From the NCBI GenBank assembly GCA_000525675.1, contig CP002190.1, positions 124,001 through 188,000 on the forward strand: a DNA stretch of 64,000 nucleotides, read 5' to 3'. The DNA comes from Bdellovibrio bacteriovorus W. GTDB lineage: Bacteria > Bdellovibrionota > Bdellovibrionia > Bdellovibrionales > Bdellovibrionaceae. Made by a program: the position numbers and the translations under genes. Below, in pieces: positions 50,316 through 64,000 of this stretch; within the stretch, counting starts at the first letter, position 1, and every line of letters begins with the position of its first letter. The notes under the pieces were generated by a model, which searched no databases, had not been told where the DNA came from, and worked only from the letters and a program-made list of their open reading frames with translations.

Positions 50316-52148
50316 ATGAAACAAAACCTTCCAAATAAGCAAGAAAAAGAGCCAACAAAGGTTCTTACTTTGCAGGAACAAGAAGCGTTAATTAAAGAAG
50401 AAATTCAACGCTTTCTGAAGCTTGCAAAGGAAAAAGGTGCGTTGACTATTGAAGAGATCAACGAACTCCTTCCACCTGAAATTATCGCCCCTTCTGTACT
50501 AGATGCATTCATGCACGGCCTAGAGGTCGGTGGTGTAGTAATTTCAGACTTGTCTGAAAGTTCGAAAGAAGAAGACGGTGAAGGTTCCTTCCTAGAAAGT
50601 CCAGATTCTGATGATGAAGAAGTGGACGAAGAAGAAAAAGCTGAAAGTGAAGACGTTAAGGGTAATGACCCAGTTCGTTTATATCTTCGTAAAATGGGAA
50701 GCGTATCTCTTCTAACTCGTGAGGGTGAAGTTGAGATTGCTCGTCGTATTGAAAAAGGGGAGCGTGAAATCGTTCGTGCGATTTTATTATCACCTCTTGG
50801 AACATACGAAATCATTCAGTTAGGTAAATACCTTGATGAGGGTCGTATTAAAGTTAAGGCGATCTTCCGTGGTCTTGAGGATGAAGATACTCAGTACGAC
50901 GAAAAGGAATACATTGATAAGATTCATGAACTTATCGGTAAAGTAACTGAATACCAAAAAAGTGCTGAGAAGTTTTTCATCACTCTTCGTCAAGAAGAGA
51001 ACAACACTCCTGCGCGCCAAGAGGCGATGAAGCAGTTGTTGGCCTTGAACGAAGGTTTGATGGCTAACTTTGAGTCTGTGAACTTCAACCGTAAGACGAT
51101 CAATCGTATCGTGATCAAGTTTAAGAACTTGGTAAGCCGTATTGCAACTCTACGTCGTCGTATTAAAGACGGTGTTGAGAGAACGTTCTCTAAAGACGTT
51201 CAAGCAATGACGGAGCGTATGAAGCTCATTGATGGAAACGAAAAAGAATTAATCAAAATGACTCGCGACACAGGTTTGAACTATCAGAAGTTCAGATCTT
51301 ATGTGATGCAAGCGCAGATTGCTGAAAAGCGTTTAACTCGTTTGGATTCAGAAACTGAAATGAATCACACGTGGGTTAAAGAAACTTACACAGCAATTTG
51401 GAAAGGTGAGCGTGAGGCCGATGCTGCGAAATCAGAATTGGTTGAAGCGAACTTACGTCTTGTGGTTTCTATCGCTAAAAAATACACAAACCGTGGTCTT
51501 CAGTTCTTGGATCTGATTCAAGAAGGAAACATCGGTTTGATGAAAGCCGTTGATAAGTTCGAATACCGCAGAGGTTATAAGTTCTCTACTTATGCTACTT
51601 GGTGGATTCGTCAGGCGATCACTCGTGCGATTGCGGATCAGGCGCGTACAATTCGTATCCCTGTTCACATGATCGAGACGATCAATAAGCTTGTTCGTAC
51701 ATCTCGTTATCTTATTCAGGAGCTTGGCCGTGAGCCAACCCCAGAAGAGATCGCAGAGAAGATGGACATGCCAGTTGATAAAGTTCGCAAGGTTCTTAAA
51801 ATTGCCAAAGAGCCAATCTCTTTAGAAACTCCAGTGGGTGAAGAAGAAGATTCACACTTAGGTGATTTTATTGAAGACAAAAAGGTGATCAACCCTGCAG
51901 AGGCGATTGTGAACCTGAACTTGGCTGAGCAAACTCGCCGTGTTCTTTCGACACTGACTCCGCGTGAAGAAAAAGTTCTTCGTATGCGTTTCGGTATCGG
52001 GGAAGAGTCTGACCATACTTTGGAAGAAGTGGGACAAGACTTTAACGTAACACGTGAGCGTATTCGTCAGATTGAAGCAAAAGCGTTACGCAAGCTTCGT
52101 CACCCATCTCGCAGCAACAAACTAAAATCATTTGTTGATGGCCAATAG
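50316..52148 (+). CDS. rpoD: Primary sigma factor RpoD (sigma-70)
   Basis: About 610 residues. Region 1.1 is followed by an acidic stretch (about 75-110), region 1.2 ([20 protein letters not shown]), a non-conserved region (about 150-340), region 2 ([34 protein letters not shown]), region 3 ([11 protein letters not shown]) and region 4 ([20 protein letters not shown]). It directs housekeeping transcription. The ATG at 50316 follows AGGCGG; a GTG two codons earlier is an alternative. Confidence 0.97.
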
Positions 52149-52174
52149 AGATAAATAAAGTTCTAAATTAAAAA

Positions 52175-52204
52175 GGGAGGTTGATAAGACCTCCCTTTTT
52201 TTAT
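52175..52204. terminator. Bidirectional terminator after rpoD
   Basis: GGGAGGT (52175-52181), loop, ACCTCCC (52189-52195), followed by eight or more T and preceded by A. The T run runs into the stop codon of the convergent gene. Confidence 0.85.
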
Positions 52205-53649
52205 TCTTTTTCTGATTTTCGAGTCAGATTTTGCCAATCTAAGAAACTAATTTGCCAAGTCTTTAGGTAATACTGATTAAGGCTTTCAGGAATGCTTGAG
52301 GTGACCTGAAAGGCGCAGCGGTGGTGCAACTCGCGCTCACTCAAAGCCTGCTTGGTAGTGGCTTCGCAGAAGCGCTCAAGCCAGCTCTTTTGTAGCTGAT
52401 CCGAAACTTCAGAGACGATTTCTTTGCTGATAGAGCCGATCCAATCGGCATCGGAAAGAACGACGGGGTTTGTCGGGGTTAGGCCCGCATCAGGGAAGTT
52501 TTCATTCGAGCGATCCTTAAGTAAGGAATACTTTCTTTGAAAATCGAATTCAAACCCCTGCTTGTCCAGTGTGGCTTGGATCTTTCCCTTTAAAGTCTTT
52601 TCTGCTGAAACCTCTGTGGCTTGATAATAGTGTTTTCTATCTTCGGCGCGGTACTTAGTGACAGTCACAGATTCTGTTCCATCCATATTATCCCTGACAA
52701 CTTCATCAGACATGGAAGAGTTTCCAGAAAGTAGAGTCAGCATAGTTAAAATACTATCGGCGTTTGATTTTTTCTGAGTTTTAACACGCTTATAAGTGTC
52801 TTTATAGGGAACCTGAACTGTATAGACAGCCATTCTTGAAACGGGTGTTTCTTTATAGTTTTTCTCGAAGTCTCCTTGAATGGAAAGATCGAGATTTGCC
52901 GTGCCTTTTTTATCATACCACTTTGACTGTAAGAACGCGGTTTGGATATCGTGACTTAAACGATCCTGCAGGCTTTTATCTAGGTGAGTGAGAGAAGATT
53001 TCGGTGTGGCCCCTTTGAAAAGCACCACTGAGTTTTTGAGAGGTTTATCTTTTAAAGAGACTTCCCAGATAGAACAAGTGCGCTTCAGCCAGTCCATTGT
53101 GTAGTACTCGCTGCTTTGCAGGCCTTTGTGGGTCTCACTGCAAAAGCGCAGTCCTTGGCTATAGATTTTGTTTTTAAGGAGCGAAAGATTTTTTGAACGT
53201 GCCTCGCCCATAATGAAGTGGTTTTTATTAAACTCTACTTGTGCGGCTATGGGGTTTTTCTCGTGAATAAGTTTTTCAATTCTTTCTTCCACACGTTTTG
53301 AGAAATGAAGGATTTCTTCTTTTTGAGTTGAGAAGGCGACGCCGGAAGGGAAAACCTGCCATTCGTTTTCTTTTTTAATAATGTCTAAAAGCAGAGTCTC
53401 GCTATCGCGAAGATTGTCCCCGAGGCGCAAAAGCCGGACGTCGATCAATTTGCGGTTGATCCACTCTTGCTGAGCTTTACGTAAGCCTTCCAAGGCGTCG
53501 CCGTTTTGAGGACTTTCGGAGGTGGCCTGCTGAAAGAGAGTCAGAGCCTTTTCGTATTGGCCTGCCTCAAGGGCGTTGTACCCCTGTTGAGTGAGGCTTG
53601 CACAACCTAGTAGAAGGAACGGAACGAGGACAATGAGTTTGCGAAACAT
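52201..53649 (-). CDS. Large lipoprotein with N-terminal TPR-like repeats
   Basis: A 482-residue protein with lipobox LLGC (Cys16). Residues about 20-65 form TPR-like helices (GYNALEAGQYEKALTLFQQ). The rest is a soluble alpha/beta region without a motif I know; a stretch near residue 290-340 is Ser/Asn/Asp-rich. Its stop lies at the shared terminator. It seems to be transcribed alone. Function unknown; an outer-membrane periplasm-facing or surface protein. Confidence 0.8.
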   Translation of the reverse strand: MFRKLIVLVPFLLLGCASLTQQGYNALEAGQYEKALTLFQQATSESPQNGDALEGLRKAQQEWINRKLIDVRLLRLGDNLRDSETLLLDIIKKENEWQVFPSGVAFSTQKEEILHFSKRVEERIEKLIHEKNPIAAQVEFNKNHFIMGEARSKNLSLLKNKIYSQGLRFCSETHKGLQSSEYYTMDWLKRTCSIWEVSLKDKPLKNSVVLFKGATPKSSLTHLDKSLQDRLSHDIQTAFLQSKWYDKKGTANLDLSIQGDFEKNYKETPVSRMAVYTVQVPYKDTYKRVKTQKKSNADSILTMLTLLSGNSSMSDEVVRDNMDGTESVTVTKYRAEDRKHYYQATEVSAEKTLKGKIQATLDKQGFEFDFQRKYSLLKDRSNENFPDAGLTPTNPVVLSDADWIGSISKEIVSEVSDQLQKSWLERFCEATTKQALSERELHHRCAFQVTSSIPESLNQYYLKTWQISFLDWQNLTRKSEKE

Positions 53650-53790
53650 AAAAGATTTCCCGCGTGAGCTTGTTTTTTAGAAAACTTCTAAAATTCTAAG
53701 GGCAAAAAAGGGGGAGTTTAAGGCATAGCGTGTCGTATCAGACGCTTTACCGTGCGTGGATTTTTTTGGTAGTTTATTCAGATCAATTAA

Positions 53791-53867
53791 GGGGGTTTAG
53801 CTTAGTTGGTTAAAGCATCCCGCTCATAACGGGAGGATCGTGGGTTCAAGTCCCTCAGCCCCTACCA
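53791..53867 (+). tRNA. tRNA with CAU anticodon (Met elongator or Ile2)
   Basis: A 77-nt cloverleaf: acceptor GGGGGTT / AGCCCCT, D stem GCTT/AAGC, anticodon stem TCCCG/CGGGA with loop CTCATAA, T loop TTCAAGT, and encoded CCA. The 1:72 pair is G-U and 6:67 is U-G. The initiator type is excluded because of the paired end and because the anticodon stem lacks three G-C pairs in the initiator order. Met elongator versus Ile2 (lysidine) cannot be told by eye. One T-stem mismatch (50:64, U-U) is seen. Confidence 0.9.
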
Positions 53868-53964
53868 TTTTATACCGTCAGAGTATAACTAGATAAGCTT
53901 GTCTTTCTTTCATTGTTTCTCTCTAGAAAATAGCTAAAACTTAAAAACCGGGAGAAACGCTGAA

Positions 53965-55008
53965 TTGACTGAAAATAGCCGAAATACTTTTTTTGCAGTT
54001 CTAATCATTGCTTCGATGGCGTTCTCTTCATCCGTATCCCTTGCGCAGCCTAATACTGGCGAGTCCTTCACCATCTATATCGAAAATGACACCCGTCGTA
54101 TTGGCGGGCCAGGGTCAGACGATAACTACTCCAATGGACTGCGTCTGTCTTATGTCTATGCTGAAGATCAGGTTCCTAATTGGGTGCCGACTCTGACGGA
54201 TTGGTCAGAAGATCTGCGCCGTGAGTTTCGTAAATCCAGCAATACAAATTTTGGGATTTCCCTCGGGCATCAGATTTTTACGCCGAAAGATACCCAAACT
54301 GAAACTTTGATTACAGATGATCGTCCCTATGCTGGGTGGCTTTATTTTGGATTCATGGCTAGCTATCAGACAGTTTCTCATAGTCATTCCTTAGAATTGG
54401 ATTTAGGAGTGGTGGGGCCTGCAGCGATGGGAGAACAGGTTCAGAATAATTTCCATTCATTGATTGATGTGGAAAAAGCTAAAGGCTGGAACAATCAGTT
54501 GGACAATGAGCCGACAGTGCAGGTTTCTTATCAACAAAGACTTCGTTTTATTAAAGCAGAATTTCATGACAGCAGAGTCGCTGATTTGATTCCCTATTTT
54601 GGAGGAGCGGTTGGTAACGTTTTAATCGGTGCCCATGTGGGAGCTTTGTTGAGGGTCGGATTTAATATTCCCGATGACTTTGGTCCCACGCGCCCGTCTT
54701 CCACCGATGGTGATCCTGCCTTTATTCCACGCCCTGATATCAATGCACAGAAGTGGGGAGGTTATCTTTACGGGGGCTTGAGGGGAAATTTGGTAGCGCA
54801 TAATATTTTTCTAGATGGCAGTATTTTTCAACACAGCCACCATGTTACGAAATATCCCATGAATGTCGAGACCGAGTTTGGTGTAGGCGGGCGCTATGGT
54901 GGATGGAGTGTTGTTTGGCGATATGTCACTAAATCGCCAGAGTTTGAAGAGCGCAGTATTTTTAACAGCTTTGCTTCGATCAGTATCTCTTATGCAAGAA
55001 GCCTTTAA
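53965..55008 (+). CDS. LpxR-family (DUF2219) lipid A deacylase-like outer-membrane protein
   Basis: A 347-residue protein with a signal peptide (cut near SLAQ, residue 28). The mature start FTIYIENDTRR carries the N-D pair of the LpxR active site, and the family sequences DDNYSNGLRLSY, ISLGHQIFTP and DDRPYAGWLYFGF follow. The rest is a 12-stranded beta barrel. LpxR removes a 3'-acyloxyacyl group from lipid A. TTG is the only start that leaves a full signal peptide, with GGGAGA upstream. Probably modifies its own or its prey's lipid A. Confidence 0.88.
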   Translation: MTENSRNTFFAVLIIASMAFSSSVSLAQPNTGESFTIYIENDTRRIGGPGSDDNYSNGLRLSYVYAEDQVPNWVPTLTDWSEDLRREFRKSSNTNFGISLGHQIFTPKDTQTETLITDDRPYAGWLYFGFMASYQTVSHSHSLELDLGVVGPAAMGEQVQNNFHSLIDVEKAKGWNNQLDNEPTVQVSYQQRLRFIKAEFHDSRVADLIPYFGGAVGNVLIGAHVGALLRVGFNIPDDFGPTRPSSTDGDPAFIPRPDINAQKWGGYLYGGLRGNLVAHNIFLDGSIFQHSHHVTKYPMNVETEFGVGGRYGGWSVVWRYVTKSPEFEERSIFNSFASISISYARSL

Positions 55009-55151
55009 AGGCTGATTCATATCTATTTACATTTTATTTTATTCACACCTATTTCAAACAACAGCATTTAATTCTTGCAAAGAAACATCTTTCGTCGCGC
55101 CTGACTTACTCTCAAAATGAACTCTCAAGTTTTTCAAGGAGGAAGACGGAT

Positions 55152-55529
55152 ATGGAGAATTCAGCTGAGATCATGAAGGTTGGGGAAAAACTCGTGGACT
55201 TCTGTCGACGAGGAGAAAATCTAAAAGCAGTGGATGCGCTTTACTCTGATAAAGTGGAAAGTCATGAGGCTGTTTCAATGCCCGGGATGCCCGAAGGTAT
55301 AAATGGCATTGAAGCTATTCGTAAGAAAAATAAAGATTGGGAAGAGACTATGGAAACCCACAAAGTGGATGTGGACGGTCCTTTTCCGTGTGGAAACCGC
55401 TTTGCCGTTTATTATAATATCGATGCCACGGATAAAAAAACTAAGAAAAGAATGCAGATGAAAGAAGTTGGTCTCTACACAGTTCGCGATGGCAAAATCA
55501 TCAAAGAGGAATTCTTCTATTCGATGTAA
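55152..55529 (+). CDS. SnoaL-like (NTF2 fold) protein
   Basis: A 125-residue protein after a strong AAGGAGGAAG RBS. The NTF2/SnoaL fold is seen in the helical start (EIMKVGEKLVDFCRRGE), LYSDKVESHEA and the last strand TVRDGKIIKEEFFY. These domains bind or isomerise small molecules; substrate unknown. Its 3' end (40 bp) is duplicated at 60020-60059 on the far side of the fibre gene. Confidence 0.8.
   Translation: MENSAEIMKVGEKLVDFCRRGENLKAVDALYSDKVESHEAVSMPGMPEGINGIEAIRKKNKDWEETMETHKVDVDGPFPCGNRFAVYYNIDATDKKTKKRMQMKEVGLYTVRDGKIIKEEFFYSM
55483..55522 (+). repeat. 40-bp direct repeat, copy 1 (SnoaL 3' end)
   Basis: Matches 60020-60059 at 39 of 40 bases, with one G/T difference at the sixth base. 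It codes for the last residues of the SnoaL-like protein. Confidence 0.9.
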
Positions 55530-55552
55530 ATCGTATTCATCAAGAAATGATC

Positions 55553-55609
55553 TGTACCCCTAAAAATCTAGCAGGTCTTTTTCTATTCCTGTCCAATTTT
55601 CGGGGTACA
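55553..55609. other. Nested inverted repeat between the SnoaL and fibre genes
   Basis: TGTACCCC (55553-55560) and GGGGTACA (55602-55609) pair across a 41-nt loop that contains a smaller CAGG/CCTG pair. It lies between the two convergent stops, so it may act as a shared 3' structure. No good T run. Confidence 0.4.
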
Positions 55610-55634
55610 CTTTTATGATTTTTCCTAACCGAAG

Positions 55635-58600
55635 TTAGAGTGTTCCTGCTGCAGATTCGTAAACGGTCATTTCGCCTGGGTAGACAATTCTTCCATTGCC
55701 TACATACGTCGAATCGACTCGGAGTGACAGGAAGTAAACATTGCCAGGCTTGAACCGTAAATAAATATTTCCATCGGATCCAATGTATTGAGTTGGGTTG
55801 AAGTGGCCTTGTGGGTCACGGCTCTGAGGAGCTGTAATTATACTAGGAGTTAGAGCGTAAGAGTATCCAACGAATGTGAGGTCTATATCTTTGGCATCTC
55901 CGTAGGCGTATCCTTCGACTTTGAAGTGATACATATTGGTATGAACTGAGGGTTTAAATGGAGTTCTGATATGGATATAGAGCGCAGAACTGGATGTTTG
56001 AGTAAAAAAGCTAACGACATTGATGGTTTTGGCTCCAATTCCACTTCCAATAACAGTGCCGCCGCTAACCTCTAGTTTAGCTCTAGGATTGTCAGTTCCA
56101 ATTCCAATGTTCCCATTCTGGCTGATATTCATGCGGGATACAGCGACCTTACTGCCATCTGGTGTCGTGTTAAAAACTAAATTGCTCCCATTGGCAGACT
56201 CTGTCCAGTTCTCTGTAGCTTGGGAGATTATGCCAGTTTGAGCACCTGTGGAGGGTGCAAAGGAACTTCCATTATAGCCTGCAAAGATAAACTGTCCCAA
56301 GAAGTCGTTCTTTTGAAGGGCTACTGGAGCCGCTTCTGTGCCGCGTGCGGCGCGGGCAACAAACGGAGCTCCCCATAAATCGCTAGAGTTATAGTAGGTG
56401 GCGTGAATCCCCCTTCCTGCTGCGGATTGAGCGACAACTTCAAGCTGAGCGATTGGTTTTTGAGTTCCAACCCCCACGTTGCCGCCAGAGGAGTTTAAAA
56501 CAATATTTCCTGCTGTCATGTTGGATGTTCCAGCCAGCGTCAAAGTATTTTCAGCGGCAGTGCCGCCATAAAGAGTTTGTCCGCCGGAGCGACCCGCAAG
56601 AAGGGCATACTGCTTAAAAAGATCACCAGAAATTGCTGAGAACCCAGGGGTGCCTGAAGCGTTGGTGGTTAAAACTGAATTGTTCGCAGTTGTAAGACCT
56701 CCGATAACATTGTTAGCCGAGGAATAAAGCAGCTGGTTCGCCGTGGTTGTTGATGGGTAACTGGCTGTGCTGAAAGTGGGACCAGTAACACTATTGTGTT
56801 GTAAAACAGAGCCATGGACCACGCTAGAGACTGAAGTGAGTGCTGTGCCACCTGGATTTGAGGTGATAACGCTAGATGCTCCAAAGCTGCTGGCATTGGT
56901 GCCGCCGTTAGCGATTGGCAGTACACCACTCACATCCGAAGTCAGTGTGACGGCGTTTCCGCCGGAGAGGGCACCCGCAGCGGTATTCTTCACAATTCCC
57001 GCTGTTGTAAAATTAGAAAGAGTCAAACCTGAAAACGTTGGAGTCGCCGCCGTATGAATATTCTGCGGAGTCGCAAGGGTCACAGAACCCGCCGCATTGG
57101 TCACAGTGACTTGATTGGCAGTGCCGTTTAAAGCTTTGTATTCATAGCCTGTGGCACCTGCATTCATGCCTAAAATTCTATTAGCTGCTCCAAGTCCTGT
57201 CAGTCCAGCAAGAGAAATTGTCGGCGTTGCTCCACCTGTTGAACTCAATGGTAAGGTGGTGCCGACCGATGTAACAGTTCCATTTGTTAAAGTCTGCCAA
57301 GATAAATTACCAGCACCATCATTAATCAATGCTTGAGTTCCAGTGCTTTGTGCAGCAGGCAACCTCAAAACATAATTTGTGGCAATCGCACCTGACGGGC
57401 CTTGGACAGTCACAGAGTTCCCATTAGTTCCTGCAGTGTAAGCGCTGCCAGTGTTTGCAGAAAATTTGAGATTACCAGTCATAGAGTCGCCAGCTTTGAG
57501 CACATTGAGTGAAGCGGCACCCGTTAAACTTGCAGTAATATTTCCTGCACTGAAATTACCTGAAGCATCACGCTTAACGATTGTGGAGGCAGTGTTCACA
57601 TTTGTTGCAGCATTTGCAGCCACTTCAGCAGTATGTACATCCGCTGCTGTTGAGCCACCGACAGATTTCACAGTTGCAGGAACCGAACCAGAACCTGACG
57701 CTGTGACATCGCCAGTTAGAGCGGTGATGGTGCCGCCAGCACCCGCGGCTGAAGCAATAACTGCCCAAGCACCGGAGTTATATTGGTAAATCTTTTGAGT
57801 ATCCGCTGCGAAATACAGATCGCCCATTAGAGGAGAGGCTGGTTTACTAGAGTCAGCACCAGAGCTGATCGTTGTAACACCTCCACCATTTTTAACGACC
57901 GAGTCAGTAATACCATAACCACTCAAAGTAGTAGGTTTATTAGTTGTGATCTTAGACCAATCCAAATTAGGAATATCAGAAGCAACTAAAGATGCGGAAC
58001 CAGAAGTGACACGGCCTTTAGAATCCGTCGTCACTTTATAATAAGTGCCCGGAGTTCCAGTCGCAGCTAGTGTTAGAGTTGTAGAACCTGCAGCCGATGT
58101 TACATCGCCAGTAAATGCTGGCAGTGCAGAAGCTGGTAAAGTTCCATTCAGATCACTCGCTTGCAGAGTTGAATTTACAAACGCTGAACCATTGTGGCGA
58201 ATATAGTCACCAGAAGTTGGTGTCGTAAGGGTTAATGTAGATCCTTGAAGTTTAGCAATTGTTGCAGGCGCAGAGCCTGGACCACTTGCAATCACATCGC
58301 CAGCTAAGGCGGTCACATAGTTCCCAGCAGCTTGTTTGTTATTAAATGTCGTCCAATCAGCAGAAGATAAATAGCCACCAGTAGAAGAAGTCGCTTGAGA
58401 AATGGAAACAACTGGATTTGAAGTTCCAGAAGCAACACTAATGGGTGAAGTGCCAGAAACAGAAGTCACGGTTCCCGGATTTCCTGCAGGCAGAGTCGCA
58501 GGAGCCCACTTTGTACCATTCCACTGCAAAACTTGATCGGAGGTTGGTGCTATTGGATCAATAGGTTGATTCTGTAAAGCCACGACTTTCGCGGAACCAA

Positions 58601-59810
58601 TAGATCCAGTGACATCTCCCGCCAAGCCCACATTGATTGCTTGGCATTGGAAATTCCCCGAAACAGAATTCCAATATATAGTTTGTGAAGGTGAACATCC
58701 CGCAGAGGAAATATAGCCGTTAAACGCAGACTGAGTAATGTAATTAGAGAGTGTCGAAGAGAAATTAGAAATATCACCTGTGGTTAAAGTATTCGCAGAC
58801 CAATTTGTACCATTATACTTTAGAATTTGTCCTGAATTTGGCGCAATGGAACTTACACTAACACCTTGAAGAGCGGCCACCGTAGGACTTGGATAGTTCC
58901 CTGCCAGATCTCCGCTAGCAGCGCCACCTGGTGCGACTCCCGCTATCGCAATATTACCGGCTGCGGTTAAACGACCTTGAGCATCGACAGTGAACGTGGG
59001 TACCTGAGCAGCAGAGCCATAAGATCCTGCGATAACAGATGTATTTTCAAGACTGATAGTTCCACTTGTTGTAATCGGGCCGCCTGTTAAACCTGCACCT
59101 GTCGAGATGTTGACGACAGATCCTGAACCAGCAGCCAAACAAGTCATCGCGGAACCATTCCAAGACAGGTAAGTTCCAGTACTGCACGTAGGAAGACCGG
59201 CTTTTATTAAGAAATCTGTCGCGACGTTCGTTCCGAGTTTTTCCGCAGAAAAAGCATAGCCCGCAAATGGAACAGAACGAATGATGTTATCAGGAGTAAT
59301 TGTTTGCCACGATTTACCATCGTAAAAAGAAACCCGTAATTTTCTCAGGTCACCAGAAGAAGCTTGATAGGTGCTTGTGCTGTTTGAGCAAGAATAGGAG
59401 TCGCTCAAGGTGCAAGTGCCACAATTAAAAAGAGCGCTGTTATTGAATGCATTGAGTATGCTTGAGCTACCTAAGGGATATTGAATGGCCCCCAGGCCAA
59501 TGGGTACGTCAAAGACTCCGCCGGAATTGACCATGTTAATCCCGGTGACCTGCTCTTGATAGATAAGACATTGACCAAGAGGATCCATGATCTGAAATAG
59601 AAAAGAAACGGCATTATATTCCAGAGGCTTGCCACTGGTATTCAAGATTCTACCCTGATAAGTAAGAGAAATGGGGGAGGCTGGCGCTACTTCAGAAAAA
59701 AGAAAGAACAATAGTGTAAAGGCGATCATGGCAATGAGTCGATGTTTCAAATTAAACAAGGTTATATCTTTGCGATCGTCTTTTATAAGAAATCTTCCAG
59801 CACGTACCAT
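55635..59810 (-). CDS. Giant secreted fibre / adhesin (mosaic adhesive trimer-like)
   Basis: A 1391-residue protein. A hydrophobic signal sequence near residues 25-45 is followed by a conserved N-terminal domain (SLTYQGRILNTSGKPLEYN). Then come at least five related modules beginning GDV or GDL (GDVTGSIGSAKVVALQ, GDVIASGPGSAPATIAKLQG, GDVTASGSGSVPATVK), with the recurring QVLQWNGTKWAPATL motif; long Ser/Thr/Gly/Asn stretches; NVGVGTQKPIAQLEV and NIGIGTDNPRAKLEVSG motifs; and a unique C-terminal beta domain of about 115 residues. This is the layout of phage-tail-fibre-like Bdellovibrio MAT proteins that bind prey through the C-terminal tip. ATG at 59810 with AAGGA; a TTG at 59867 is less likely. 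Confidence 0.8.
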   Translation of the reverse strand: MVRAGRFLIKDDRKDITLFNLKHRLIAMIAFTLLFFLFSEVAPASPISLTYQGRILNTSGKPLEYNAVSFLFQIMDPLGQCLIYQEQVTGINMVNSGGVFDVPIGLGAIQYPLGSSSILNAFNNSALFNCGTCTLSDSYSCSNSTSTYQASSGDLRKLRVSFYDGKSWQTITPDNIIRSVPFAGYAFSAEKLGTNVATDFLIKAGLPTCSTGTYLSWNGSAMTCLAAGSGSVVNISTGAGLTGGPITTSGTISLENTSVIAGSYGSAAQVPTFTVDAQGRLTAAGNIAIAGVAPGGAASGDLAGNYPSPTVAALQGVSVSSIAPNSGQILKYNGTNWSANTLTTGDISNFSSTLSNYITQSAFNGYISSAGCSPSQTIYWNSVSGNFQCQAINVGLAGDVTGSIGSAKVVALQNQPIDPIAPTSDQVLQWNGTKWAPATLPAGNPGTVTSVSGTSPISVASGTSNPVVSISQATSSTGGYLSSADWTTFNNKQAAGNYVTALAGDVIASGPGSAPATIAKLQGSTLTLTTPTSGDYIRHNGSAFVNSTLQASDLNGTLPASALPAFTGDVTSAAGSTTLTLAATGTPGTYYKVTTDSKGRVTSGSASLVASDIPNLDWSKITTNKPTTLSGYGITDSVVKNGGGVTTISSGADSSKPASPLMGDLYFAADTQKIYQYNSGAWAVIASAAGAGGTITALTGDVTASGSGSVPATVKSVGGSTAADVHTAEVAANAATNVNTASTIVKRDASGNFSAGNITASLTGAASLNVLKAGDSMTGNLKFSANTGSAYTAGTNGNSVTVQGPSGAIATNYVLRLPAAQSTGTQALINDGAGNLSWQTLTNGTVTSVGTTLPLSSTGGATPTISLAGLTGLGAANRILGMNAGATGYEYKALNGTANQVTVTNAAGSVTLATPQNIHTAATPTFSGLTLSNFTTAGIVKNTAAGALSGGNAVTLTSDVSGVLPIANGGTNASSFGASSVITSNPGGTALTSVSSVVHGSVLQHNSVTGPTFSTASYPSTTTANQLLYSSANNVIGGLTTANNSVLTTNASGTPGFSAISGDLFKQYALLAGRSGGQTLYGGTAAENTLTLAGTSNMTAGNIVLNSSGGNVGVGTQKPIAQLEVVAQSAAGRGIHATYYNSSDLWGAPFVARAARGTEAAPVALQKNDFLGQFIFAGYNGSSFAPSTGAQTGIISQATENWTESANGSNLVFNTTPDGSKVAVSRMNISQNGNIGIGTDNPRAKLEVSGGTVIGSGIGAKTINVVSFFTQTSSSALYIHIRTPFKPSVHTNMYHFKVEGYAYGDAKDIDLTFVGYSYALTPSIITAPQSRDPQGHFNPTQYIGSDGNIYLRFKPGNVYFLSLRVDSTYVGNGRIVYPGEMTVYESAAGTL

Positions 59811-60019
59811 TACCCAATCCTTCTTCAGATTAAGCTCTCCGAATAACTTTTCGGTATTCTGTGACAATTTCTTAAATCAAGAGGCTTCTGATGTTCGATG
59901 ATGAGACGGTGAGAAGTTCTAAAGGTCGACATTTAGTAGCCTGACTAAAGTCGCAAACGCGCTGAGGATCTGAAAAAACTCAGATTTAAAATCCAGATGA
60001 GCGAAGACTGACTTTCCAA

Positions 60020-60064
60020 TTCGCTATGGCAAAATCATCAAAGAGGAATTCTTCTATTCCACGT
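60020..60064 (+). pseudogene. Remnant of a second SnoaL gene (3' end only)
   Basis: In frame it reads RYGKIIKEEFFYST and a TAA, the same C-terminus as the protein at 55152. A stop lies a few codons upstream, so only the end of a duplicated gene survives. Bases 60020-60059 are copy 2 of the 40-bp repeat. Confidence 0.8.
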
Positions 60065-60090
60065 AAAAAGAAAAGAGTAATTCCTAATGC

Positions 60091-60120
60091 AAAGAGAGGG
60101 AGCTAAAGTCCCTCTCTTTT
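60091..60120. terminator. Bidirectional terminator
   Basis: AAAGAGAGGGA (60091-60101), loop GCTAAAG, TCCCTCTCTTT (60109-60119). It now ends the oxidoreductase gene on the minus strand and may once have ended the lost SnoaL copy. Confidence 0.85.
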
Positions 60121-60128
60121 ATTTTAAA

Positions 60129-60980
60129 CTAATTCAAAAACTCTGGCAGGGTCTCTTTCATCGGTGTTGTTTTGCGGCCCAGAAGATGGCTCAGATCATG
60201 GGTCTCGTCGTAAAGGCCGCCCTTAGAGGCTGCAACGTCAGATTGGGCTAGCACACCCGCAAAAGGCTCGGGCAGTCCGACCTTCACAAGTAACGCTTTG
60301 TAATCTGTTTCGGAGAGATCCGTGTATTTAACATCCTTCCCAGTTTGTTTAGAAATTTCTTTCGCAAGATCACTCAGCGTATAGCTTTCATCTCCTGCTA
60401 GTTCATAAAGGGGTTTAGGGTTTTCCATTGTAAGAACTTTAGCAGCCGCCTCTGCGTAGTCTTTGCGAGGTGCTGAAGAAATACGTCCTTCTTTCACAGC
60501 GCCGAACACAGCTCCATGTTCAACGGCTGATTTTGCACTTTGGACGTAGTTTTCGGTGTACCAGCCATTACGCAAAATAGAATAGGGAATGCCGCTGGCT
60601 TTAATAAGCTCTTCCGTCTGACGATGCTCTTCGGCTAAAACTAAATTAGAAGTGTCTGCGCGCAGAAGGCTTGTGTAGACAATCAATTTCAAATGTCCGT
60701 ATTTTTTTGCAGCCTCAAGTACGTTCTTGTGTTGTTGGAAACGCTTGCCGACCTCACTGCCAGACACAAGCATTAGCTTATCGATGCCCGTAAAAACCTT
60801 TTCCCAAGAGTGTGCATCGTCATAATCGGCGACACGAACTTGCACTCCTAAAGCTTTTAAAGATTCTGCTTTTTGAGGGTTCCTCACAGCAGCTACAATT
60901 TGATTTGCAGGAACTGTTTTTAAGAGGGATTGAATAATCATTGGACCTAGGTGACCTGTGGCGCCGGTAACTAAAATCAT
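60129..60980 (-). CDS. NAD(P)-binding quinone-oxidoreductase-like protein (QOR2/NmrA type)
   Basis: A 283-residue extended SDR protein. The nucleotide site is MILVTGATGHLG; AAVRNP gives the NADP-binding Arg, and the LRNGWYTENY region matches QOR2 (YtfG) and NmrA-like enzymes. It reduces quinones or senses redox cofactor ratio. It is divergent from a LysR regulator 103 bp away, a common pairing. AGGAG RBS. On the minus strand TATACT (61021-61016) is a good -10. Confidence 0.88.
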   Translation of the reverse strand: MILVTGATGHLGPMIIQSLLKTVPANQIVAAVRNPQKAESLKALGVQVRVADYDDAHSWEKVFTGIDKLMLVSGSEVGKRFQQHKNVLEAAKKYGHLKLIVYTSLLRADTSNLVLAEEHRQTEELIKASGIPYSILRNGWYTENYVQSAKSAVEHGAVFGAVKEGRISSAPRKDYAEAAAKVLTMENPKPLYELAGDESYTLSDLAKEISKQTGKDVKYTDLSETDYKALLVKVGLPEPFAGVLAQSDVAASKGGLYDETHDLSHLLGRKTTPMKETLPEFLN

Positions 60981-61015
60981 AACGAACTCCTTTTTATTTG
61001 TTAGAAGACTTCGCC

Positions 61016-61081
61016 AGTATAGTTTCTTGATTCGATCTAATAAATAGCTTCCGAGTTAATACATTGTTTCTTATTATGAAA
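61016..61081. promoter_or_regulatory. Divergent promoter/operator region of the oxidoreductase-lysR pair
   Basis: A minus-strand -10 TATACT (61021-61016) serves the oxidoreductase. TTTC-N7-GAAA (61067-61081), extended by ATT and AAT on the flanks, lies directly before the lysR ATG and may be the autoregulatory site of the LysR protein. Confidence 0.4.
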
Positions 61082-61083
61082 TA

Positions 61084-61974
61084 ATGGATCGCTTAACAGC
61101 TATAAATGTATTTATCGAAGTGGCAAAAACGGGAAGCTTTACAAAGGCGGCGGACAATCTTGATATGTCTCGGCCTATGGTGACGCGATATATTTCCCTA
61201 TTGGAAGACTGGGTCGGGGTGGGGCTCTTACAGCGCTCCACGCGTAAAGTTTCTCTGACTCCTAGTGGAGAGCTTTACCTCGATAAGTGCCGTCAGATTC
61301 AAGACATCGCTTTTGATATTGAGGTGAACTCAAAGTCGACACTCAGCGCCCCCCATGGGGTTATTCGTGTGGCGTGCAGTGTTTCATTTGCAAAGTCGCA
61401 GTTTAAAACTCTGGTGGCTCCCTTTTTAGAGAAATACCCCCATGTGACGATGGACTTTGTGGTCACCGATCGGCAGGTGAACCTCATAGAGTCGCGCGTA
61501 GATTTTGCCATTCGTATAACCAATCATTTAGATCCCGGAGTGGTTTCCAAAAAAATCGGAGTTTGCAGATCTTGCCTTGTAGCTTCGCCTAGTTACCTAA
61601 AGAAAAGCGGAACTCCCAAAAAAGTCGAAGATCTTAAAAAACACGTGGTGATGGCGCATGATCATTTTAAAAAAGTAGATATTCAAATCCATAAAGAGGG
61701 GCGCCTTGAAGATTTGATTTTTAGTGGGGCCTTTAGCTCCAATGAGACACTTCTTTTATTTGAGGCAACCTTAGAGGGCTTGGGTATTGCGATGTTGCCC
61801 ATTTACTTAGTCCAAGAAGCCTTAAAGAAAAAAGAGCTGATGGAGGTTTTGCCTGACTGGGAATTGCCGGAGATGGGGTTACACCTAGTCTTTATGAATC
61901 GCAAAATTATCGCACCGCAAGTGCGTCTATTTATTGATTACTTGGCAGAGAAAGCCAAGCGCCAGAGTTGGTGA
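61084..61974 (+). CDS. LysR-family transcriptional regulator
   Basis: A 296-residue protein. The N-terminal winged helix is MDRLTAINVFIEVAKTGSFT followed by KAADNLDMSRPMVTRYI and LLQRSTRKVSLT. The C-terminal periplasmic-binding-like effector domain covers about residues 90-296. It is of the type that regulates a divergent oxidoreductase. RBS is weak. Confidence 0.93.
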   Translation: MDRLTAINVFIEVAKTGSFTKAADNLDMSRPMVTRYISLLEDWVGVGLLQRSTRKVSLTPSGELYLDKCRQIQDIAFDIEVNSKSTLSAPHGVIRVACSVSFAKSQFKTLVAPFLEKYPHVTMDFVVTDRQVNLIESRVDFAIRITNHLDPGVVSKKIGVCRSCLVASPSYLKKSGTPKKVEDLKKHVVMAHDHFKKVDIQIHKEGRLEDLIFSGAFSSNETLLLFEATLEGLGIAMLPIYLVQEALKKKELMEVLPDWELPEMGLHLVFMNRKIIAPQVRLFIDYLAEKAKRQSW

Positions 61975-62020
61975 AGGCGCTAAGACTCAGAGCTTGCGCC
62001 TCTCATGAATAGAACAAGAT

Positions 62021-62857
62021 TTAGAGTTTCTCGAGACGAGATTTGCCATTTTCTGTAAGGTGAGTGAAACGAACTCCGTAGCGATAGAAAACTTGATCTG
62101 ACCCAGGGATGCGAACTTTGCGAATTGAGACAATCTCGCCGCGAGCGTCGACTTTATTGCCATCAAGTTCTTTTGCAAAACGAATCATAATGTTTTCGTT
62201 GAGCTGACAGCGCGCCGAGCGAACGATAAAAGCCATTCCAGATTTAGAAATATCTGGGCAGAGAGCCTGAAACCCTTTGTTCTGAGCAATGATGATGAAG
62301 ATCTCGCCGGAGTCGTGTCGAGTGTGTTTTCTGCGAATATTGACGTCAGGCACATCTTCAGGGCTCGAGGCGCGAAATTTAGAAACGGATTCCGGTTTAA
62401 ACTCGTCCCAGTCGATCAGTTTCTTCCAAGGCCCTGTAGGAGACTTTGAAATTTCACTGGCCTCATGAAGATGGTGATCGTGGATTTGCGAGAGCACATC
62501 AAGATATTTGAGAGGCTGATTGATTTGATTCTTTTTATACCAGTAAACAGTCTCAACTAGAGGCTCTTTGGTCGGCGAGAGGAGGCCTGAAAAAGCAGAG
62601 TTATCAAAAGTTAACTCCTCTTCGATAAGGCCCACGGCCTTGTAATTCGAATCCTCAGAGACGCTTTCACTGCCAGACTCTTCCAGCACCTCAGAGAAAT
62701 CTGGATGCTGCATCAGCATGACCCACTCTTGAGTTTGGTTTGAAAGAATCAAATCAAAAAGAGAGATCTTCCCCGCACGGAGGGCCTCAATTACATTCTT
62801 CTCTGTTAATGGGCCTAAATTTTTTGAACCAGATTTAATATAATAAGTTCCAGACAT
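62021..62857 (-). CDS. GYF-GYF-PilZ protein (predicted c-di-GMP receptor)
   Basis: A 278-residue soluble protein. Two GYF_2-like domains (about 1-55, YYIKSGSKNLGPLTEKNVIE; and about 104-155, VYWYKKNQINQPLKYLD ending GPWKKLIDW) precede a PilZ domain (about 172-278) with the c-di-GMP motifs RRKHTR (175-180) and DISKSG (202-207). So it should bind c-di-GMP and pass it to a partner. In Bdellovibrio c-di-GMP receptors control gliding and prey invasion. It is monocistronic. Confidence 0.85.
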   Translation of the reverse strand: MSGTYYIKSGSKNLGPLTEKNVIEALRAGKISLFDLILSNQTQEWVMLMQHPDFSEVLEESGSESVSEDSNYKAVGLIEEELTFDNSAFSGLLSPTKEPLVETVYWYKKNQINQPLKYLDVLSQIHDHHLHEASEISKSPTGPWKKLIDWDEFKPESVSKFRASSPEDVPDVNIRRKHTRHDSGEIFIIIAQNKGFQALCPDISKSGMAFIVRSARCQLNENIMIRFAKELDGNKVDARGEIVSIRKVRIPGSDQVFYRYGVRFTHLTENGKSRLEKL

Positions 62858-62966
62858 TTTTCCCTCGGGGCTTCCTCAAAGACTTCGAGATACAAATATT
62901 ATATCGAAACTAAACCTTCGTGACAAAATAACAAATGACTTCTAGCCTTATATTATGTTCGTCGTA

Positions 62967-63908
62967 ATGAAGCGCAAAACGCTTTTATTTTTTGTAGTAG
63001 TTCTCGCAATCACCCCGAATACTGTTTGGGCGGATGTTGAGTCTTCATCAGAAAGTACAAAAAAGAATACTAATATTCCTTTGTTGGATCGAGTTCTTAC
63101 AGAAGAATATCTTGAGGACACTCGGCAAAGCGTTGTTGGGCAAGTCAATCGCCTCGCAGACAGAATTGACTCCCTCTTTGGGAATAGACGTTATGATGAT
63201 CGTTATAACAAGAGCACTCTTCGTATTTCTCAAGAAAGTTATATTCTTGACGGAACTCCAGGTGCGGACAGTCCGTCGGTTAGTTTGAATCTTCACTTGC
63301 CTCAGTTGAAAGAGTTGGAAAAGAGACTCTTAAAAAAAATCACTCCGTCCCCTTCAGGGGGCCCTGGTGGGAAAGAAAAAGAAGAGGTCAATCCTTGGCG
63401 ACTCAATCAAGAGACCGGTATCGTGGCAACGATTCCGATTGATTACTTTCTAAGGTTAAGACTGAGTAAAGACTTTCAAGTGGGGTCTTTTTTGAATACA
63501 TTCTACGAGCAAGTGGGATGGTCCAAAAAAAATGAATGGGTTGAGAAGACCTCTCTCATGTCAGACTATGCAATCTCTGACAAACTTCTTTTTCGTTTTG
63601 TAAATGAGAAAGAATGGGAGATGACGGATCGGGAATTGTCCACGGTGCATGGTCCCTCTGTTTTGCAACAGTTGAGTGCGATTAGCGGTATCTCCTATAA
63701 CCTACGCTATTCGACTGAATTAGATGGACATGATTTTTATAGCAAACGAGTGAGTCTTTCGAGTATTTATAGAACACAGTTTAAATTACCGTGGATATTT
63801 GTTGAGCTAAAGCCAGAGCTGGCGTGGGTGAGGGAAACCAATTTTCGCGCCCTTTATAACTTTTATCTAAAATTCGAATTCGTGTTTGGAAATAGCGATG
63901 ATAATTAG
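62967..63908 (+). CDS. Predicted outer-membrane beta-barrel-like protein
   Basis: About 313 residues. A signal peptide (MKRKTLLFFVVVLAITPN, cut near VWA-DV) is followed by an acidic linker and alternating strands with terminal Phe, as in small outer-membrane barrels (LRLRLSKDFQVGSF, YNLRYSTEL, FYLKFEFVF). No family recognised. The frame has an ATG at 62955, but the one at 62967 gives a proper basic signal-peptide start, and TATATT (62949-62954) could be a -10 directly upstream. The last bases overlap the parvulin gene by 11 nt. Confidence 0.7.
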   Translation: MKRKTLLFFVVVLAITPNTVWADVESSSESTKKNTNIPLLDRVLTEEYLEDTRQSVVGQVNRLADRIDSLFGNRRYDDRYNKSTLRISQESYILDGTPGADSPSVSLNLHLPQLKELEKRLLKKITPSPSGGPGGKEKEEVNPWRLNQETGIVATIPIDYFLRLRLSKDFQVGSFLNTFYEQVGWSKKNEWVEKTSLMSDYAISDKLLFRFVNEKEWEMTDRELSTVHGPSVLQQLSAISGISYNLRYSTELDGHDFYSKRVSLSSIYRTQFKLPWIFVELKPELAWVRETNFRALYNFYLKFEFVFGNSDDN

Positions 63909-64000
63909 AGCAAGTCACATATTAGTTAAGCATCAGTATGAAGCTGAGGATATTTTAAAGCTCCTAGAAAAAGGTGCGTCCTTTGAGGAGATGGCGCGAA
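63898..64000 (+). CDS. Parvulin-type peptidyl-prolyl isomerase, N-terminal part
   Basis: The first 34 codons: MIIRASHILVKHQYEAEDI, then LLEKGASFEEMA, the start of a PpiC/rotamase domain (A-x-H-I-L-V is its hallmark). The gene continues beyond the window. It overlaps the upstream outer-membrane-like gene by 11 nt, so the two are coupled; a periplasmic or cytoplasmic form cannot be told, though no signal peptide is seen. Confidence 0.85.
   Translation, partial: MIIRASHILVKHQYEAEDILKLLEKGASFEEMAR

Follow-up and report, generated by a model that had tools for sequence, protein, structure and literature searches.

A fibre gene between two SnoaL gene ends in Bdellovibrio bacteriovorus W looks like a one-off insertion scar

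Introduction

How does the gene for a large fibre come to lie between two copies of the same short gene end? The question is raised by a locus in a 64,000-nucleotide stretch of the Bdellovibrio bacteriovorus W genome (hereafter the window), where a fibre gene stands between an intact SnoaL-like gene and the tail of a second. A first-pass annotation read the arrangement as the footprint either of a SnoaL tandem duplication interrupted by the fibre locus or of a fibre-gene insertion with homologous flanks, and proposed that it shows how fibre genes may move between sites. MAT (mosaic adhesive trimer) fibres are described as prey-handling adhesins of B. bacteriovorus with 21 members and exchanged tips (Caulton et al., 2024; PMC10769870). 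They are proposed prey-recognition adhesins, and the SnoaL locus would be one insertion scar bearing on changes in their repertoire. A literature search on the SnoaL–fibre locus found nothing among the matches listed, in which Bdellovibrio and SnoaL co-occur only in protein-clustering work.

Organization of the locus

From left to right the region holds dnaG, rpoD, a TPR gene (minus strand), tRNA-Met, an LpxR-like gene, the intact SnoaL gene, a 57-bp inverted-repeat hairpin, the fibre gene (minus strand), the SnoaL tail, a terminator hairpin, an NmrA-like gene (minus strand), a LysR gene and a PilZ gene (minus strand). The names dnaG and rpoD were assigned from sequence, and both genes are conserved in all 58 relatives searched. 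The features are as follows.

53791–53867, plus strand: tRNA-Met (CAT), the conserved left anchor after dnaG–rpoD
53965–55008, plus strand: LpxR-like outer membrane protein gene, left flank (Pfam LpxR, 4.7e-95)
55152–55529, plus strand: intact SnoaL-like gene, 125 aa (Pfam SnoaL_5, 4.9e-19)
55435–55530, plus strand: repeat copy 1, the 3' end of the intact SnoaL gene
55547–55616, no strand assigned: old mini-element whose inverted ends, TGTACCCC...GGGGTACA, are related to those of the resident IS3-family element; outer limits approximate
55635–59867, minus strand: MAT-family fibre gene, 1410 aa from the first TTG (Bdello_MAT_N, 7.5e-58)
59973–60067, plus strand: repeat copy 2, the decayed SnoaL tail; 59973–60016 degenerate, 60017–60067 92% identical
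60091–60119, plus strand: intrinsic-terminator-like hairpin of 11 pairs behind the remnant
60129–60980, minus strand: NmrA-like NAD(P)-binding protein gene, right flank (Pfam NmrA, 6.5e-26)
61084–61974, plus strand: LysR-type regulator gene, right flank (domain search)

The intact SnoaL gene passes the curated SnoaL_5 cut-off comfortably (69.4 bits against 24.1). An Rfam search over 52000–64000 returned the tRNA alone.

The direct repeat and the decayed tail

The reported match of 39 in 40 bases between 55483–55522 and 60020–60059 is borne out. Both copies had been read as coding for GKIIKEEFFYS followed by a stop; the coding sense and the stop stand, and each copy has one residue more before the stop, the ends reading GKIIKEEFFYSM-stop and GKIIKEEFFYST-stop. 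The ungapped repeat is longer than 40 bases (55480–55530 and 60017–60067; 51 nt, 92% identical, spacing 4537), and a gapped alignment of 55435–55530 with 59973–60067 is identical in 77 of 97 columns. Under the settings used this pair is the sole direct repeat of at least 36 nt in the window, and shuffling the window 100 times produced no 39-mer match with three or fewer mismatches. Dispersal of the 40-bp repeat through the genome, raised by the first-pass annotation as an argument against its own reading, was not seen: a search of the whole genome (one contig, 3,006,992 bases) gave two places that match beyond chance, with E values of 1e-50 and 3e-16, the next being 0.08.

The second copy is a 3' remnant only, as had been supposed. 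Its upstream half is degenerate, with a stop in it, and it is too short for the SnoaL_5 domain. Before the 51-nt core, homology of lower identity extends for about 45 nt; two of 3000 dinucleotide shuffles, and none of 2986 other window positions, reached its anchored score of 23. A smaller earlier run had given 2/200 shuffles and 1/300 positions, and we take the top-scoring position of that run (173.5) to overlap the SnoaL gene itself. Past the stop, no homology between the copies was found beyond 1–2 bases.

In its last 50 nt, the tail agrees with the resident SnoaL gene at 46 positions, with the SnoaL gene of genome G015 at 41 and with those of 17 other relatives at 31–38; the comparison covers 18 relatives and leaves out G020, where the script found no tail motif. 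The tail was therefore copied from the resident gene, or conversion has kept the two alike. The match is uneven, with identity in 45/51 columns of the core against 32/46 upstream (gapped alignment, Fisher P = 0.027; 0.004 in an earlier count entered by hand). Such unevenness is not what a single neutral duplication predicts, and it counts against the explanation that we favour below; gene conversion at a later time, or recombination between tails that had already diverged, could lie behind it.

The fibre gene

The fibre belongs to the MAT family NF053851 (Bdello_MAT_N), matched at residues 53–223 with 194.9 bits against a cut-off of 60; its true start is probably nearer 59810. Residues near 1160–1299 match the sequences of PDB chains of the cell-wall-anchor type (8oml, 8on4 and 8ol4), and the PHROG match is to a tail fiber (4.1e-18). 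From its membership of the MAT family the product is predicted to be a trimeric surface fibre on the predator. With the MAT fibres as described in PMC10769870 it shares a conserved N-terminal domain, a long repetitive shaft and the match to solved cell-wall-anchor-type chains. It differs from the fibres described there at its C-terminal end, where about 140 residues (55638–56050) found no sequence match among the fetched loci and MAT genes or in the PDB, and in that no S74-type Pfam domain was matched in it. These residues possibly form a private tip domain; prediction of the tip structure from the single sequence gave a mean pLDDT of 34.9.

The nearest relative of the fibre is a MAT gene of genome G005 (70% over residues 35–1145). 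Its ends carry no SnoaL sequence, so the SnoaL tail at the fibre locus is a local contribution.

SnoaL and the site in relatives

A SnoaL match occurs in 19 of 58 other genomes, all of them congeners (19 of 23) and with one match each; no second SnoaL tail was found in the 23 congeners. A contig scan for SnoaL gave one distant SnoaL and no more. The neighbourhoods of SnoaL differ widely among congeners. DnaG identity to the 17 congeners compared is 70–78%, and the comparison reaches no nearer genome.

The position of the terminator bears on which side of the repeat is the older. By one simple rule, a terminator lies within 90 bp of the SnoaL stop in ten of 18 relatives; in the window the same rule finds one behind the remnant (11-pair stem) and none behind the intact gene, where the inverted-repeat hairpin lies in its place. 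The pattern points to the remnant as the copy that retained the former downstream side, the new DNA having entered directly behind the intact gene, and the hairpin at 60091–60119 is probably the original SnoaL terminator. The argument is a moderate one, because the other eight relatives have no terminator by the same rule.

The explanation that we favour, with a probability of roughly 55%, is that a MAT cassette was inserted long ago immediately after SnoaL and that some 95 bp of the SnoaL end were duplicated in the event, by single crossover or by duplicative end-capture. In the ancestral state SnoaL would have run straight into the terminator now at 60091–60119. A cassette of about 4.5 kb with the MAT fibre gene would then have entered directly behind the SnoaL stop codon; the event would have been an insertion and not a deletion. 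About 95 bp of the 3' end would have been duplicated in the process, leaving SnoaL intact and moving the duplicate tail and the terminator to the far side of the fibre, and the duplicate tail would have decayed afterwards. The event may have been a single (Campbell-type) crossover of a DNA circle bearing the fibre gene and a SnoaL tail, or duplicative capture at a broken end; both would produce the same geometry, and the sequence alone does not tell them apart.

Thus one half of the earlier footprint claim, insertion with a duplicated flank, fits both the 46/50 match of the tail to the resident gene and the restriction of the repeat to this locus. The other half, a full tandem duplication, is less supported. 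It would have SnoaL duplicated first, with a fibre cassette later taking the place of the DNA between the two copies and of the greater part of the second, whose tail was left. We regard this order of events as possible yet unlikely: it accounts for the decay of the second tail, for the terminator behind that tail and for the degenerate homology further upstream, but SnoaL-bearing relatives have one copy each and none has two SnoaL genes or a second tail, the downstream sequence, terminator included, is not duplicated behind the intact SnoaL, and an extra deletion, hence more steps, would be needed.

The wider site is variable. The interval from tRNA-Met to the PilZ gene measures 2.1 kb in G005 and 7.4 kb in G001, where it holds other genes and none of SnoaL, fibre, NmrA or LysR, and the genes behind dnaG–rpoD–tRNA-Met vary between most of the 14 genomes listed. 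With such varying cargo behind the anchor, the whole block reads as accessory cargo at a variable site, and the region behind tRNA-Met is a candidate cargo hotspot. The anchor dnaG–rpoD–tRNA-Met(CAT) is common to 15 of the 18 rpoD loci scanned (window 53791–53867; L056, L074–L088 and L093). A conserved anchor with changing cargo offers a practical place to study change in the MAT repertoire in strain collections.

Genome G015 was considered as an empty site and dropped. Its SnoaL gene also lies near rpoD, without a second tail, and 30 bp on there is a convergent gene for a surface protein with Ig-like domains. DnaG groups G015 with G002, G006 and G023 and not with the window genome, the neighbouring genes differ, and rpoD is cut after residue 254 (L054, 15107–16012), its remainder not found in the genome and the adjoining tRNA-Met missing. 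The break is probably an assembly gap. On these grounds G015 does not represent a clean ancestral state. Separately, large proteins of one sequence cluster adjoin or lie near SnoaL in several congeners (L063, L064, L066, L054 and L062), and both of the two tested (from L063 and L054) have bacterial Ig-like domains.

The IS3-type mini-element

The hairpin between SnoaL and the fibre gene has the ends TGTACCCC(N)AAAA, also present at both termini of an IS3-family element of 1.37 kb (279.6 bits to transposase model NF033516). We counted eight full copies of this element, several with 3-bp target duplications. A two-ended pattern search found only two mini-elements, each of about 65 bp, 8.6 kb apart. 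The second (G000:C1:188188–188252) lies 188 bp past the right end of the window; it is nearly identical to the left IS end, has CTC on both sides and sits inside an intergenic hairpin. The one beside the fibre gene has diverged and is therefore old, and perhaps now serves as a hairpin between the convergent SnoaL and fibre genes.

An IS3-type element might itself have carried the fibre, in which case the mini-element at 55547–55616 would mark one of its ends and the duplicated SnoaL tail would be a by-product. The shared ends and the eight resident full copies speak for this, as does the proximity of the sole other such mini-element in the genome. On the far side of the fibre gene, however, inspection showed no IS end, the exact end pattern occurring in the window at the left junction only, and the duplications seen at several copies of the element are of 3 bp, not about 95 bp. 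An IS3 composite transposon requires IS ends on both sides together with 3-bp duplications, an arrangement that the fibre locus does not have. The mini-element may have inserted between the two genes at a later date, much as the second one inserted in an intergenic hairpin; with no IS end on the far side, a later or independent landing is how we read it, and carriage by the element we consider improbable.

Flanks of other MAT genes

Matches resembling MAT numbered 81 in nine genomes. Ten weak ones were not fetched and two were dropped (no ORF of at least 400 aa), leaving 69 genes whose 700-bp flanks were compared. The direct repeat at the window gene scores 78.3 bits; the next scores, 35.4 and 29.7, both fall at neighbouring MAT gene pairs and would represent shared upstream regions of those genes. 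The maximum in a control of 288 mismatched flank pairs was 26.8 bits. Among the 68 other MAT genes tested in the nine genomes, not one has comparable flanks.

A filled and an empty site were seen elsewhere. In G002 a MAT gene (L058, 3693–7826) lies between two genes that adjoin in G006 and G023, where about 30 bp separate their aligned parts. The filled site has no flanking repeats and is absent among the repeat-flanked cases. MAT genes thus come and go, but a scar of the SnoaL type is not the usual trace, and gain and loss must mostly use other routes without flanking repeats. The proposal that fibre genes in general move between sites in this way therefore fails, on the 0/68 count and on the G002 comparison.

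The same count bears on the idea that the direct repeats form a functional pair, recombination between which deletes the fibre gene and restores SnoaL with its terminator, an on/off switch for an adhesin. The 39/40 core is better kept than its surroundings, and a crossover would be expected to leave a perfect SnoaL gene. Since this is a single locus with no counterpart among the 68 other MAT genes, and both states are not in evidence in the single assembly, we think a switch very improbable. Continued maintenance of the near-identical 40-bp core by recombination, the cassette looping out between the SnoaL tails and returning, strikes us as more doubtful still; were it true, the predator would bear an excisable prey-recognition gene whose loss leaves the host gene intact.

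We did not rely on SnoaL as a favoured neighbour of MAT genes, since the 12-kb limit was post hoc and positions were copied by hand. Among the matches listed, a MAT gene occurs within 12 kb at six of the 16 SnoaL loci, where 1.5 would be expected (P = 0.002), or at four of 14 when three genomes with one shared locus are merged (expected 1.0, P = 0.013). The count leaves out three SnoaL genomes (short contigs, or no listed MAT position on the same contig).

Comparison with known systems

The fibre locus looks like a one-off scar of fibre-gene insertion and not a general mode of movement; it is a scar only and no new system. Unlike an integrase-mediated genomic island it has no recombinase gene between the repeats, where the fibre gene is the sole long ORF and the other listed ORFs (61–112 aa) overlap it, and this counts against the insertion that we favour. 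Duplication of a tRNA tail, as at an island att site, was rejected: the tRNA-Met end has no second copy in the window.

Duplication of the 3' end of a target gene is known from islands at tRNA genes and other gene tails and from Campbell-type plasmid integrations. The SnoaL–fibre insert departs from these in having no integrase, in the decay of its tail of about 95 bp and in not being repeated at other loci. It resembles them in its geometry: the target gene is intact and a partial copy of its tail stands on the far side of the insert.
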